Shown in pieces: positions 48,828 to 57,228 of a stretch of 64,000 nt of DNA. Source of the DNA: Armatimonadota bacterium (GTDB taxonomy: Bacteria > Armatimonadota > HRBIN16); contig BPGU01000002.1 in assembly GCA_026003195.1 (NCBI GenBank), positions 992,001 through 1,056,000 of the forward strand. The letters run 5' to 3'. Positions within the stretch are counted from its first letter, which is position 1. Every line of letters starts with the position of its first letter. Under the pieces are notes generated by a model. It was not told the DNA's origin. It was given only the letters and a program-made list of their open reading frames with translations, and did not search any database. The position numbers were made by a program, and so were the translations under genes.

Positions 48828-48848
48828 CGGAACGCGGGATGCGTTCCG
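48828..48848 (+). promoter_or_regulatory. Hairpin upstream of the sigma factor gene
   Basis: CGGAACGC (48828-48835) pairs perfectly with GCGTTCCG (48841-48848) around GGGAT, 36 bases before the ATG. It could terminate the LCP transcript weakly or act on the sigma factor leader. Confidence 0.4.
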
Positions 48849-48883
48849 GGAATATCTCAGCAAATCCAGAGGGAGCGACAGGG

Positions 48884-50203
48884 ATGTCCAAGAGATATCA
48901 TGATGATGAGGTACAGCAGCTCGTTATCGAGTACCACCGAACAGGCAATCTGGAAATCCGCGACCGCATCGTGGAACAATTTCCTCATCTCGTGGAAAGC
49001 ATTGCCCGTCGGTTCGTCAACACGGGCGAGCCGCTGGAAGACCTGATTCAAGAAGGTTATGTTGGCTTGCTCAATGCGATTGACCTGTATAAGCCCGATA
49101 AGGGCACGAAGTTTTCCACATACGCCACTCACTTCATCATTGGGCAGATCAAGCATTATCTGCGCGACCGGGGCAAGATGATTAAGGTGCCTGCGTGGGT
49201 TCAGGAGTTGCATCAGAAACTCACGCGCGTGATGGACTCGCTATCCCAGCAGCTGGGCAGACAGCCTACCCCCGCCGAGATCGGCGCGGTGATGCATATG
49301 GATGAGAAACAGGTGGAATACCTGCTCTCCACCAGCGAGCTGTTCCGCGTGAGTTCGCTCGAAGCGGGCGAAAGCGAGGAAGACGAGCATTTTCCCGGCG
49401 CAGACCTGGAGAAGCTGGAACACCCGGACAGCGTCACCTTGCAGATTGCCACCGAGGAGCGGGTGGTGCTGGAACATGCGATGGAGCGGCTCAAAGACAT
49501 CGAACGCCAGGTGTTGTATGCTTTCTTCTACGAGGAGCTCTCACAAACGGAAATCGCCCAGCGATTGGGAATCTCCTGCAACTATGTCTCCCACATTCTG
49601 CGCAACTCCACCAAGAAACTGCGCAAGATACTGGTGACCGAGGAACTCAAAGACGCGCAGGCTCAGATGATGCGCATGCAGCAGAGGATGATGACTACCG
49701 AAGAGGAACTGCTACAACCCTCCATCGTAGACCCGATTACCACCTGTTACAACCGCCGCTACTTCGAAAGCCGTCTGGACGAAGAGATCAACCGCGCCAG
49801 CCGATATGGCTACACGGTGGGACTGGTGATTATCCGAGTCGGTGGCTCGCAGCTGTTCATTCGGCAGTACGGTTTGAACCTGTTTGAGGGAGTGATGGCA
49901 CGGCTTGCCCCGCGCCTGCGGGCGAAAATCCGCAAGGCAGATATTCCTGCGCGTATCGACGTCTCGGATCTGGCGATTATCCTGCCCTATACGGGCGAGC
50001 AGGCGGAGGTAGTACGGCAACGGTTGAGCGACGAGGCGCTGCAGATGCTGAAGGAGGAAAACCTGCTCGACTCCGGTTTGTGGATTGAGAGTGCTTGCCA
50101 CTACACCGAGGGCTGGACGAAGATGAAAGATTTTGTGCACCAGACGCAATGCAGGCTCCGGGCGTTCTGGGGCACAGTGGATCAGAAAGACCTGGCTGCC
50201 TGA
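48884..50203 (+). CDS. Sigma-70 family factor fused to a degenerate GGDEF domain
   Basis: This 439-aa protein has an intact SigB/F/G-type sigma factor (residues 1-250): region 2 (EDLIQEGYVGLLNAIDLYKP, TKFSTYATHFIIGQIKHYLRD), region 3 (PTPAEIGAVMHMDEKQVEYL), and a region 4 helix-turn-helix (LSQTEIAQRLGISCNYVSHIL). A methionine-rich coiled coil (255-280) leads to a diguanylate-cyclase-like domain (DPITTCYNRRYFESRLDEEI, about 283-425). The GGDEF signature is replaced by DVSDL at 359-363, so it cannot make c-di-GMP by the normal route. It may bind a ligand or mediate partner contact. Confidence 0.88.
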   Translation: MSKRYHDDEVQQLVIEYHRTGNLEIRDRIVEQFPHLVESIARRFVNTGEPLEDLIQEGYVGLLNAIDLYKPDKGTKFSTYATHFIIGQIKHYLRDRGKMIKVPAWVQELHQKLTRVMDSLSQQLGRQPTPAEIGAVMHMDEKQVEYLLSTSELFRVSSLEAGESEEDEHFPGADLEKLEHPDSVTLQIATEERVVLEHAMERLKDIERQVLYAFFYEELSQTEIAQRLGISCNYVSHILRNSTKKLRKILVTEELKDAQAQMMRMQQRMMTTEEELLQPSIVDPITTCYNRRYFESRLDEEINRASRYGYTVGLVIIRVGGSQLFIRQYGLNLFEGVMARLAPRLRAKIRKADIPARIDVSDLAIILPYTGEQAEVVRQRLSDEALQMLKEENLLDSGLWIESACHYTEGWTKMKDFVHQTQCRLRAFWGTVDQKDLAA

Positions 50204-50260: not shown

Positions 50261-50389
50261 GGCTTCCTTACCTGTACTTTCTACCGTTTTTTCGGTGAAA
50301 CCGGTAACCATACGGACGCTGGACTCCCCCTTCTGGCTCAGAGCTTGCTGTCTAATAGAGTGAAAGCCTGAGCGAAGGAGTGAGTGTGT

Positions 50390-51235
50390 ATGACCCGACA
50401 GACCCTTTTTGCTCTGTTGGTGTGTTTATTGCTGACTATGCATTCTGCGCAGGGAGCCCGAATGCCTCGTGGGTCCTTTCTTCGACAGCCGGCACATAGT
50501 GCCGCGCAACTGGCATCTCAAATCCGACGTGACCCGGTGGTTGCAGCGCGTTATGAGAAGCACTTCGGCGTTCCTGCCACTCAGTTCGCGACCTATGCGC
50601 AGGGACAGCTGGGGCTGCGCCCACTGAAAAGCAACGGCAGCTACACGGTGTTCTTTATCCGCAAAGACGGTACGATCGGAAGCAGTGTGCGTCGCCTGCG
50701 CAAGGGCACACCGGTGTTTCTGCATCTGCGCACCCACCAACCGGTGCTGCTGGCGGAGTGCGGCAACCCCATGGGCACCAGCCTGCCCGGATACTCTGCA
50801 CCGGCAGCGCAAGATGCAGCTCCGCCTCAACCTACTCGGACCGCCGACATGCCGATAGAACAGATGCTGGAAAGCCCATTGTCGCCGCCTGTGCAGTCGC
50901 CTACACCGGAAATCCTCGATGTTCCCGAAATGGCGCAGGTGCAGTCGCTAGAGCTGCCCCTGTGGGAAGCGGATGCCGCGCTATCGGTGCCCGACCTGGT
51001 GTTCTCTCACCCTTCCGCGATGGCTTACGCGGCTCCTGCCTCGCTGGCTCCGCTATTTCTGGTGGGCGCAAGCGGTCTGATCTCGCTGGGCGGTGACCCT
51101 TCGGGACGCGGCGGCTCGCCAACTCCTCCTGCCGTGCCAGAGCCAGCCTCATTGACGCTCTGGGCGGTTGTGGGAGGAGCTGCGGCATCGGTCAGGTGGC
51201 TTCGGAACCGCAAGACAGTATCGAGCGGGAGATAG
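50390..51235 (+). CDS. PEP-CTERM secreted protein, tandem paralogue 1
   Basis: This 281-aa protein has a signal peptide (LFALLVCLLLTMHSAQG), an N-terminal domain starting RMPRGSFLRQPAHSAAQL, and a proline-rich middle. The C-terminus is VPEPASLTLWAVVGGAAASV then RWLRNRK: VPEP motif, membrane helix, basic end. That is the PEP-CTERM signal recognised by exosortases. ATG 50390 is preferred (GAAGGAG at 9 bases). The next gene is a paralogue (51311). The domain is unknown. Confidence 0.86.
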   Translation: MTRQTLFALLVCLLLTMHSAQGARMPRGSFLRQPAHSAAQLASQIRRDPVVAARYEKHFGVPATQFATYAQGQLGLRPLKSNGSYTVFFIRKDGTIGSSVRRLRKGTPVFLHLRTHQPVLLAECGNPMGTSLPGYSAPAAQDAAPPQPTRTADMPIEQMLESPLSPPVQSPTPEILDVPEMAQVQSLELPLWEADAALSVPDLVFSHPSAMAYAAPASLAPLFLVGASGLISLGGDPSGRGGSPTPPAVPEPASLTLWAVVGGAAASVRWLRNRKTVSSGR

Positions 51236-51310
51236 CCATGCCTTCGCTGTGCCTTGAACCTGCGTGGGCGCTATGTTAGACTCTGGAGTGTACAAGGAGA
51301 GGCATGGGGC

Positions 51311-52117
51311 ATGACAAAGGGGCACATCGCTCTCGGAGCTTTTATCCTGGCGCTACTGCTTTGCACGGAGGCGGCGTGGAGCAGGCGAATGCCGCGCGGT
51401 TCCTTCCTGACACAGCCTGCCTACAGCGCGGCGCAGCTGGCCACTCAGGTGCGGACGAATCCGACGGTTGCCGCTCGTTACAGCAGGCATTTCGGAATAT
51501 CTGCTTCAGAGTTTGCGCAGTACGCACAGTCTCAGCTGGGAATGCGCCCACTGCCTCGCGGTGGCAGATTCCGTGTTTTCTTCATCCTGCCCGGTGGCGA
51601 TATCGAAAGCCGGGTGCGCTATCTGCGCCAGGGCACACCGGTGTTTCTGCATCTGCGCTCCGGACAACCGGTCTTGCTGGGCACGTGCGGGAATCCCTTG
51701 ACCGAGGCAATCCCCGGCTACACTCCGCCGCGTCAGGTGACTGTCGCACCGCCGCGAGTGCCTCAGCCTCCTGTGACACCACCACAGGAGCCGCCATTGC
51801 TGGAGCCTCCTGTATCCACTGCAGCGCACGAGATACCGGAGGCACCTGTGTTCCCACCGACCGAAGAGGTGATGCTCTCGCACTGGCAGGCGGACCCTAT
51901 CACAACGCCCCTCGAGCCGACATCACCCGCCGTTTCAGCCAGGCGTCCCAACTGGATACCCCTCTTGCTGCTCGCGTTGCCGGGGATCATGGAGAGTGAG
52001 GGCAAGCCGGCAAAACCCCCAGCCGTTATCCCCGAACCCGCTTCGGTCGCTTCGCTGGCAACTGCGGTGGCATTGCTGATTACCTGGGAAAGACGGCGCA
52101 GGGTTTGGCGACGGTGA
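51311..52117 (+). CDS. PEP-CTERM secreted protein, tandem paralogue 2
   Basis: This 268-aa protein parallels its neighbour: signal peptide (LGAFILALLLCTEAAWS), RMPRGSFLTQPAYSAAQLAT, VRYLRQGTPVFLHLRSGQPV, a proline-rich middle, and a C-terminal VIPEPASVASLATAVALLIT followed by WERRRRVWRR. GGAGAGG precedes the ATG. It arose by duplication; the N-terminal domains of both align along their full 110 residues. Confidence 0.86.
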   Translation: MTKGHIALGAFILALLLCTEAAWSRRMPRGSFLTQPAYSAAQLATQVRTNPTVAARYSRHFGISASEFAQYAQSQLGMRPLPRGGRFRVFFILPGGDIESRVRYLRQGTPVFLHLRSGQPVLLGTCGNPLTEAIPGYTPPRQVTVAPPRVPQPPVTPPQEPPLLEPPVSTAAHEIPEAPVFPPTEEVMLSHWQADPITTPLEPTSPAVSARRPNWIPLLLLALPGIMESEGKPAKPPAVIPEPASVASLATAVALLITWERRRRVWRR

Positions 52118-54272: not shown

Positions 54273-57068
54273 CTACGGATGCCCCTGTAAGGCAAGACGG
54301 CGACAGCGTGCAGCCATAGCAAACCAGCCCAACCGTTCGTAACAGCGTGCTGCGTTCGCATAATCCCCCATCTGCTTGTAACAGCGTGCTGCGTTGGTGT
54401 AATCCCCTGCTTGTTCGTAGCAACTTGCTGCTTTGGCATAATCCTCTGCTTGTTGGTAGCACCGTGCTGCTTGGGCATAATGCTTTGCTTGTTGGTAGCA
54501 CCGTGCTGCTTGGGCATAATCCCCCACCTGCTCGTAACAGCGTGCTGCGTTGGCATAATCTCCTGCCTGCTCGTAACACTGTGCTGTGGACTGTACATCC
54601 CCTAACCGCTCATAACACCGTGCTGCGTTCGTGTAGTCTTTCACCAACAGGTAACACTTGACTGCCTTGGCATAATCCCCTAACCGCTCATAACACCGTG
54701 CTGCGTTCGCGTAGTCTTTCACCAACAGGTAACACTTGACTGCCTTGACGTAATCCCCTAACTGCTCATAAAACTTTACTGCGTTCGTATAATCTCCCAA
54801 CTGCTCGTAACAGCGTGCCGCTTTCGCATAATTCTTTGCCTGCTCGTAACACCTTGCCGCGTTCGCATAATCTCCCGCTTGTTCGTAACAGCGTGCTGCA
54901 TTCGCATCATCCTGCGCAAGATCGTAACACCGTGCAGCATGGGCGTAATCGCCCCTCTTCTCGTACAAAACCGCTGCTTCGGGGTACTTCCCCTCGTGCT
55001 CCTTGCGACGCGCCAGTAGTGCCTGTGGATCGAACACCTCCGTGCTACGCACCCTCACAGGTTGTACCGCTTCCCACGCTTCCCACCATCCGTCATCTGC
55101 CTCCGACAAACCCGGTGGCAAACGAGTGTTTCCGGTTTCTACCACGACCATCCCCCGCCGCGCTCGCGTCAGCGCCACGTACAGCCGCGAAAAAGCCTGC
55201 TGCCGGAGCACGGTGGACCGCTTCATCTGCTCGTGCAGCCGACCGTAAATGTGGTACAGAGCCACGCGGTCAAACTCCAGACCTTTTGCCTCTTCGACCG
55301 TGCACACCAGCGCGCCGTGCTGGGTGAGCTGCTGCACGTGGAGCTGACTCTTCTCGCCTTCCTCCCACACCAGCACGACCCCCTGATCCCCCAGCCAGCT
55401 CGCTATCCTCTGCAGGCAGGCTTGCGAATATTCGGGTAGCAACAGGCGGGCTGGGGGCAGACCCTCCAGCAGCGCGGTGACATGGTAATCGGGCATTTCC
55501 TTCAGTCCATACTTGTCCCCGACCCGCTGCATCTCCTGTTGCACAAACTGGGCAATCTGTCGGCTGTTGCGCAGGTTCAGCTCCAACGAGCCTTGCTGAA
55601 CGATCACCGCTTGGGACAGGCGAGCCACCAGCCGCTTCCAGTGGAAGCCGGAGGGACGCAAAGCCTGGAACGGGTCGCCGGTGAGGAAGAGCCCGGCGTG
55701 GTGTTGGACCAGCCGGATGAGCAGCATCCACTGCACTTCGCACAGGTCCTGAATCTCGTCGATGTAGATGCCGTCGTACTGAGGCTTCAGGCTGTCGACG
55801 TTTTCCCACAACTGGCGTGAAAGGTCTAACTCATCCTCTCCTTCCAGACGGAACCAGGTCTGCAGGGCGTCGTAGATGGCGGCTCGCTCCTCTTGCTGTT
55901 CTTTGTGCTCCACGCCCTGCACGTATGCCTCTCTATCCACAGGCTTCTCAGTATGCCAGTTGAGCTGACCCTTGACGGCGTCCCAATACTCTGCCCACAG
56001 ATCCTCCTCGCCCCAGAACTCCTTATGTACTTTGCGCCACGGACGGAGTGCCTTGGGTACCACATCTTTTTTCCACAGTTCAACGGCTTTGAGGTATGCC
56101 TCATGAAACTGCCTGCGCCTTTCGTCGTAGCTCACTATCTGTTTCTGGGGGAAGAAGCGACGCAACAGGTCTTCATAGCTCAGAATATCCACCCGCTGCA
56201 GCAGTTCCTTTCCACCGGGCAGGTGCTCGAAAAGCAGCCAGCACAGGTTGGTGAGCGTCGGTGAGTAGGTCACTACCAGATACCTGCCCGCCGGGTTGGC
56301 GCGCGCCTGACGGTACAGATGGTACAGCATGATGGTCGTCTTGCCGCTTCCCACCGTGCCGCTCAGCAACAGCGGACCCGTCCTGCGCACGAACTGCATC
56401 TGCTCCGGCAACAGGCGCAGCAGGAAGTCTTCATCGGTCTGGGCGATGCGCTCTATCTCCTCCTCGATGCGATCGAGGTCAATCTCCACAAACTCCTGAG
56501 CGTCGTACAGGCTTTCCTGCTCGGCGTTGATGGCTTGCTCCATCCACCACTCTTCGCCCCGATAATGGAGGCGCACATACTGGGGAAGGACGTTCTTCGC
56601 CGTCTTCACGGCGGATTGCACCACCGAGATGGGCACGGTGGGATACTCGGGCAGTCGGGTAATCTCCATCTCCTCCAGCACGCCGTCCGGGTGCAGCAGG
56701 GTTGCCAGATTGAGATGTTCCGCCTGCCGGAGCGAGTCGTACGAGAGACGTTTGGCGGCGTTCAGGGCGTCGTCATGGTGGTCTACATCCCAGACCACTA
56801 TCTGGTGGGTCAGATGGTCCTTCTCCTTCGCGCCATCCTGGGAGTAAGTGTACGCCGGTTGCTTCGTAAAGATGAGGCGCACATCGTCGTTCACACGCGC
56901 CTCGAACACGGGGAGGTCTATGCCCTTCAGGCGCTTCATGCGCAAGCCGTATCCTGCTGTCTGCCCCTCGGCAAGCAGACGCACACATTTGGCTATCTGC
57001 TCGCAGGGCAGCGATTTCTCTTTAATCTTCTTTTCCACTCTGCGATGAAGCACCACCCGGCGCAGCAT
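54273..57068 (-). CDS. RelE-like domain - superfamily 1 helicase - 13-residue repeat fusion protein
   Basis: This 931-aa protein has three parts. Residues 1-100 resemble a RelE-type toxin fold (RVEKKIKEKSL, VFEARVNDDVRLIFT, IVVWDVDHHDDAL). Residues 150-650 form an SF1 UvrD-like helicase: Walker A SGTVGSGKTTIM, Walker B YIDEIQDLCE, motif III FLTGDPFQALR, motif IV LELNLRNSRQI, motif V EEAKGLEFDRV, motif VI LYVALTRARRG. Residues 693-926 are 18 tandem 13-residue repeats, consensus GDYANAARCYEQA. I start at ATG 57068. It could be a defence or RNA-processing protein; partners are unknown. It is monocistronic. Confidence 0.86.
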   Translation of the reverse strand: MLRRVVLHRRVEKKIKEKSLPCEQIAKCVRLLAEGQTAGYGLRMKRLKGIDLPVFEARVNDDVRLIFTKQPAYTYSQDGAKEKDHLTHQIVVWDVDHHDDALNAAKRLSYDSLRQAEHLNLATLLHPDGVLEEMEITRLPEYPTVPISVVQSAVKTAKNVLPQYVRLHYRGEEWWMEQAINAEQESLYDAQEFVEIDLDRIEEEIERIAQTDEDFLLRLLPEQMQFVRRTGPLLLSGTVGSGKTTIMLYHLYRQARANPAGRYLVVTYSPTLTNLCWLLFEHLPGGKELLQRVDILSYEDLLRRFFPQKQIVSYDERRRQFHEAYLKAVELWKKDVVPKALRPWRKVHKEFWGEEDLWAEYWDAVKGQLNWHTEKPVDREAYVQGVEHKEQQEERAAIYDALQTWFRLEGEDELDLSRQLWENVDSLKPQYDGIYIDEIQDLCEVQWMLLIRLVQHHAGLFLTGDPFQALRPSGFHWKRLVARLSQAVIVQQGSLELNLRNSRQIAQFVQQEMQRVGDKYGLKEMPDYHVTALLEGLPPARLLLPEYSQACLQRIASWLGDQGVVLVWEEGEKSQLHVQQLTQHGALVCTVEEAKGLEFDRVALYHIYGRLHEQMKRSTVLRQQAFSRLYVALTRARRGMVVVETGNTRLPPGLSEADDGWWEAWEAVQPVRVRSTEVFDPQALLARRKEHEGKYPEAAVLYEKRGDYAHAARCYDLAQDDANAARCYEQAGDYANAARCYEQAKNYAKAARCYEQLGDYTNAVKFYEQLGDYVKAVKCYLLVKDYANAARCYERLGDYAKAVKCYLLVKDYTNAARCYERLGDVQSTAQCYEQAGDYANAARCYEQVGDYAQAARCYQQAKHYAQAARCYQQAEDYAKAASCYEQAGDYTNAARCYKQMGDYANAARCYERLGWFAMAARCRRLALQGHP
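54291..54992 (-). repeat. 18 tandem 39-bp repeats inside the helicase gene
   Basis: Each 39-base unit encodes 13 residues with consensus GDYxNAARCYEQA. Units 8 and 10, and 7 and 9, are near copies, showing recent duplication of 2-unit blocks. The DNA is in frame throughout. Confidence 0.9.
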
Positions 57069-57099: not shown

Positions 57100-57128
57100 A
57101 TCATAGCATATCTGTGCACAAAAAGCAA
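57100..57128 (-). promoter_or_regulatory. Promoter of the helicase gene
   Basis: On the minus strand: TTGCTT (57128-57123), 17 bases, TATGAT (57105-57100), about 32 bases before the ATG. Confidence 0.7.
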
Positions 57129-57228
57129 GCTTTTTTTGCGCTTCCCGTGTCGTTTTTTTCTGCACGACAAGCATGCCCTCAGCGGATGCTTCTACCCTCT
57201 AGAACGGTGATACGCCTTACCCCCTTCT

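Follow-up and report, generated by a model that had tools for sequence, protein, structure and literature searches.

A 931-residue protein encoded by one intact reading frame on the minus strand at positions 54273–57068 of the window (the whole 64,000-nucleotide stretch of Armatimonadota DNA analysed here) almost certainly combines a RelE-type fold, an SF1 motor and an array of 18 short repeats. We read it as a stand-alone motor and effector, ArmD-like by architecture, with a diversifying sensor solenoid, and we put the full mechanism proposed below at a probability of roughly 0.5. Fusion of a RelE domain to a helicase is already known from ArmD; what is new is the stand-alone gene and its hypervariable array.

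A sequence-only reading of this DNA had assigned the N-terminus to a RelE-like fold by pattern only, an assignment now backed by profile–profile comparison, fold prediction and structural searches. In an AlphaFold2 model, residues 1–108 (56745..57068, minus strand, as are all features of the gene) adopt, at moderate confidence, the order b-a-a-b-b-b-b-a with a core pLDDT of 71–89; residues 95–224, which include the end of this domain and the linker, are unreliable in the model built on a six-sequence alignment. The suggested comparison of the predicted structure with RelE/ParE returned a RelE-like fold: the top Foldseek matches were the toxins HP0892 (H. pylori), YoeB and YafQ, with probabilities of 0.80–0.96 and E values of 0.07–0.15. 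Single-sequence Pfam matches of the N-terminus all fell below the cut-offs, and include ParE_like, HigB-like and YoeB as well as unrelated families. A profile of nine N-termini of the window-protein type (A4) was linked to RelE through the N-termini of short RelE–helicase proteins (A5): hhalign aligned A4 with A5 at a probability of 97.5 (E 7e-12), A5 in turn matches PDB structures of RelE toxins (1wmi, 1.4e-5; 3bpq, 4.9e-5), and one A5 member exceeds the Pfam ParE cut-off. On these profiles and the model, we regard the predicted RelE fold as established. Across ten RelE–helicase N-termini, R58, R64 and D99 never vary and H98 hardly does; the domain may catalyse ribosome-dependent mRNA cleavage.

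The linker that follows (residues 109–210; 56439..56744) is modelled with low confidence and is conserved across the genus. It leads into a compact SF1A motor of the UvrD/GajB-like type (residues 211–650; 55119..56438), supported by Pfam, PADLOC and Foldseek. Motifs I to VI are all readable, as had been claimed for this part, and include a Walker A motif GTVGSGKT with K243 (56337..56360) and a Walker B motif DEIQD with D437 (55746..55760), the equivalents of ArmD K266 and D454. The Pfam UvrD-helicase match is weak (1.3e-7) though over the cut-off, the best PADLOC match of the protein is GajB (3.8e-13), and Foldseek of the motor core returns UvrD, PcrA, Rep and HelD at E values of 1e-10 to 1e-12, HelD–RNA polymerase complexes among them. 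Only about 70 residues separate motif IV from motif V, so the 2B domain is small or missing. The motor thus shares the SF1A fold and motifs of UvrD, PcrA and Rep but differs from them in having little or no 2B domain and in the added RelE domain and solenoid, which bears out the earlier remark that this is not a standard UvrD layout. Several UvrD elements are missing from GajB as well, and no detectable unwinding or DNA binding has been reported for it (PMC10681800). By this analogy, and given the small or missing 2B domain, the window motor may as readily be an NTP-driven switch or translocase as a true helicase.

The C-terminal array had been described as an 18-unit solenoid, and that count holds. 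It spans about residues 693–927 (54288..54992) in units of 13 residues (39 bp) with the consensus YEQAGDYANAARC. TRF reports a 39-bp period at 54337–54912 and 54805–54940, and AlphaFold2, drawing on a six-sequence alignment, places 18 helices between residues 695 and 927 at a strict spacing of 13 residues, one predicted helix per unit, with pLDDT mostly 81–92 and lower at the last units. At lag 13 the array has a self-identity of 0.55, where shuffled versions average 0.10 (2000 shuffles, maximum 0.17; z 24.5), and a chance repeat was rejected on that score. TPR-type Pfam models match the array; a TPR reading (a two-helix unit of 34 residues, with a 34- or 20-residue period) was rejected because lag 13 dominates and the unit is a single helix of 13 residues. 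An HMM search of all three parts, proposed earlier as a check, matched the motor and the array and stayed under the Pfam cut-offs for the N-terminus.

Directly before the ATG at 57068 lies AGGGGG, and an in-frame TTG, 34 codons 5′ of that ATG, is a possible alternative start. The gene had been credited with its own promoter; the promoter scan found none over threshold upstream of the reading frame, and the best that can be picked out by eye is a possible weak site, TTGCTT-17-TATGAT (8/12; 57100..57128), which is under the scan threshold. An imperfect inverted repeat, gcaaaaaaagc-ttgctttttgtgc, also noted by eye at about 57117–57142, overlaps the weak −35 element and could be a candidate operator. 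The neighbouring genes in the window are ordinary ones, with no defence gene, methyltransferase, YprA-like, BrxHII-like or GajA gene beside the gene of interest and no recognised antitoxin gene or operon partner adjoining it; no defence island was found at this locus. Elsewhere in the window, one reading frame at 48839–50203 (plus strand) matches sigma-70 regions 2, 3 and 4 and, at its C-terminus, a GGDEF domain, so that its product would join a sigma factor to a diguanylate-cyclase-type domain. The neighbouring genes at 50384–51235 and 51254–52117 (plus strand) are apparently a tandem duplicate: read by eye, their products resemble each other, look secreted and end in PEP-CTERM-like sequences.

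The closest characterized relative by architecture is ArmD of ARMADA type II, a protein of about 704 residues with a RelE-like domain and a GajB-like UvrD motor. Deletion of armD or the K266A substitution abolishes phage protection and D454N weakens it; ARMADA needs four genes, ArmD working with ArmA–C in an operon; and the parts of the report available to us describe no mutant of the ArmD RelE site (PMC12458937). An E. coli plasmid protein of 704 residues (P0008), reached through the short RelE–UvrD family, has its Walker A lysine at position 266 and its Walker B aspartate at 454, and its gene follows those for a methyltransferase and a giant DEAD/DEAH helicase. Because both the residues and the upstream genes agree, comparison at the sequence level identifies the short RelE–UvrD family as ArmD. 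The window protein shares the N-terminal RelE-like domain, the GajB-like UvrD motor and the conserved Walker motifs, at 21.5% identity between the motors (E 7e-6), whereas ArmD has no repeat array and sits in an operon with ArmA–C. No armA, armB or armC operon is present at the window locus, and we therefore do not file the gene as ArmD. GajB of Gabija resembles it in the compact SF1A motor but has neither RelE domain nor solenoid and is paired with GajA. In the literature collection searched, no RelE–UvrD fusions other than ARMADA were found.

On plasmids, short RelE–UvrD genes adjoin type III CRISPR (Thermus), lie within a restriction–modification locus (Gemmobacter) and precede giant helicases (Pseudanabaena). 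Homologues do not lie beside repair genes, the placement that the earlier reading had named as refuting it. The window genome itself has a solitary short ArmD-type gene (L109 9599-11692; C2:678101-680110). Proteins combining RelE, UvrD and a solenoid occur on Crinalium, Euhalothece and Paraclostridium plasmids, and a Fimbriimonadaceae MAG encodes a RelE, UvrD and helical-repeat protein with mainly 34-residue periodicity. No phage carriage was found for the Crinalium homologue; viral contigs yielded one weak locus and, for the short form, four partial helicase matches. A deep tree of the RelE–helicases gave long branches and no resolved branching, and its own-genome UvrD row was badly chosen.

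A further distant variant is a protein of 1528 residues (L034 2175-6761; G003:C8), whose SF1 core is related and is preceded by a long N-terminus and followed by a long helical region. Among the matches listed, many Shigella plasmids, and some from E. coli, carry relatives of the motor, one of these relatives being annotated as an ankyrin repeat protein. On the Euhalothece plasmid, a second UvrD-type gene (L052 10864-12756) directly follows the RelE–UvrD–solenoid gene, and its product has an N-terminal nuclease-like region, NERD-type by eye. TRANK1-type proteins, in which UvrD is joined to TPR or ankyrin repeats, are a possible eukaryotic parallel.

Within the genus, six congeners share one slot for the gene, flanked where contigs allow by genes for a membrane protein and a phosphoesterase; in G008 both flanking genes are present, but different sequence adjoins them and the gene has left no trace. 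At E≤1e-10 the array was found at a single locus of these genomes and in no second gene. The array at that locus is hypervariable between species; its units evolve in concert, and a block of them has recently been duplicated. It counts 18 units in the window, about 162 in G005 (a 2801-residue reading frame in a 7-contig assembly), about 50 in G007 and at least 13 in G001, and is split over contigs in G004; the G005 array contains an exact 440-bp duplication at a 16-unit offset. In four species the nearest relative of most units is a unit of the same array (25 of 26, 10 of 11, 14 of 15 and 70 of 82 cases), but in the window this holds for only 9 of 17. Compared between species, the array thus both varies in repeat number and shows concerted evolution. 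Positions 3, 5, 8, 9 and 12 of the unit are variable. Within-array pN/pS is below 1 overall, with a few positions above 1 in G007 and G004, and gives no clear signal of diversifying (positive) selection across the units.

The core of the protein also changes quickly. Between the window and G005, the motor shows dN 0.18 and dS 0.62, against dN 0.04–0.05 and dS 0.28–0.38 for both neighbouring genes, an evolution about four times faster than that of the neighbours. The short RelE–UvrD paralogue is 93% identical between these two genomes and the core of the window protein 76%. Change is uneven along the sequence: nucleotide identity to the nearest orthologue (G005) is 93% over residues 111–210 and 61% over residues 301–430, a segment in the 1B region (55779..56168) whose flanking parts are at 87–93%. 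Over residues 361–430 the window is nearer to G007 (70%) than to G005 (62%), which indicates intragenic recombination and a mosaic motor. Disabling lesions occur in three of the seven copies: a frameshift within the RelE domain in G001, two stops in the motor in G002, and, in G003, a stop where the array begins and a frameshift further on. Errors in MAG assembly could account for these; if real, they would show the pattern expected of a dispensable, costly gene.

Taken together, the order of effector, motor and repeats, the turnover of the repeats, the mosaicism, the repeated loss and the kinship with ArmD favour a function in conflict. Against a defence reading stand the lack of an island and of partner genes, the low similarity to ArmD and the want of clear selection on the units. 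The earlier guess at defence gains support by analogy, as ArmD, with the same first two domains, is an anti-phage component; the suggestion of RNA-directed action does not, since ARMADA is reported to act directly and non-abortively (PMC12458937). That same report, together with the dependence of ArmD on three partners, lends some weight to an ArmD-like defence directed at DNA. The RelE fold would then serve as a structural module or bind nucleic acid, with no RNase activity, and the solenoid would bring in partners whose genes lie elsewhere in the genome. GajB, with no detectable unwinding or DNA binding (PMC10681800), fits this too, as such motors may be switches. We consider it unlikely, if worth taking seriously: R58, R64, H98 and D99 are kept in nearly all RelE–helicase proteins, as expected of an active site, and no partner gene adjoins the window gene.

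A housekeeping motor with a scaffold solenoid, acting in RNA polymerase recycling like HelD or PcrA or in repair, would explain the HelD–RNA polymerase complexes and UvrD/PcrA among the Foldseek matches and the one chromosomal slot that the gene keeps across most of the genus. It is nonetheless improbable, given the lesions in three of seven copies, the fast evolution, the plasmid relatives and a patchy distribution beyond the genus (of 291 genomes of the phylum, 9 match at E≤1e-12, comprising the window genus, the Fimbriimonadaceae MAG and one partial helicase match). The plasmid relatives raise another idea, a helicase that first served to maintain plasmids or to act against them and only later became fixed in the chromosome, because those in Crinalium, Paraclostridium and Gemmobacter lie near ParA and that in Euhalothece near ParA/ParB-like genes; the collection searched held plasmids only, so such proximity is expected, and the window copy is chromosomal with no ParA-type neighbour, which leaves this idea quite improbable. 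The RelE fold and the absence of a recognised adjacent antitoxin gene would also suit a self-contained toxin–antitoxin-like protein whose array holds the RelE domain inactive. Array-less RelE–helicase proteins exist, one of them in the window genome, and the array is therefore not needed to restrain the domain; we hold this last explanation to be very improbable.

For an ArmD-like stand-alone protein with a diversifying sensor, we propose that the solenoid would serve as a sensor or partner-binding arm for a phage- or plasmid-derived protein or nucleoprotein, and that this binding would license the motor on nucleic acid. ATP turnover would then unmask or deliver the RelE domain, which may cleave RNA or block translation locally. 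Because gain or loss of a 39-bp unit keeps the reading frame, unequal recombination could renew the sensor without disabling the enzyme. The defence function is a putative one, and the sensor role is suggested by the layout and dynamics of the array and by analogy with fungal NLRs and STAND receptors. In fungal NLRs, the WD, ANK and TPR domains with highly conserved repeats show repeat-number polymorphism and concerted evolution (PMC4986451), and bacterial STAND receptors offer a comparison for repeats in a sensor role (PMC10907252). Fungal NLRs and bacterial Avs/STAND proteins share with the window protein an N-terminal effector, a central NTPase and C-terminal repeats, and the fungal ones also the polymorphism and concerted evolution; the window protein differs in its SF1 motor, which is not a STAND NTPase, its 13-residue unit and its lack of clear positive selection. 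More tentatively, and as a possibility we think falls short of probable, it may be a one-gene immune receptor in which an SF1 helicase replaces the STAND NTPase switch, RelE is the effector and an array of about 13 to about 160 units of 13 residues renews specificity by growing, shrinking and homogenising while the reading frame is kept, as the repeats of fungal NLRs may do.

ArmD represents a type of anti-phage protein that experiments have validated but that is still little understood, and the window protein links it to a stand-alone form in which a fast-changing candidate recognition arm is built in. With arrays of about 13 to about 160 units at one locus, the genus offers a natural size series on which the sensor idea can be put to a direct test. 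If the array is a sensor, bacteria would have an NLR-like strategy of diversification built on a helicase scaffold.
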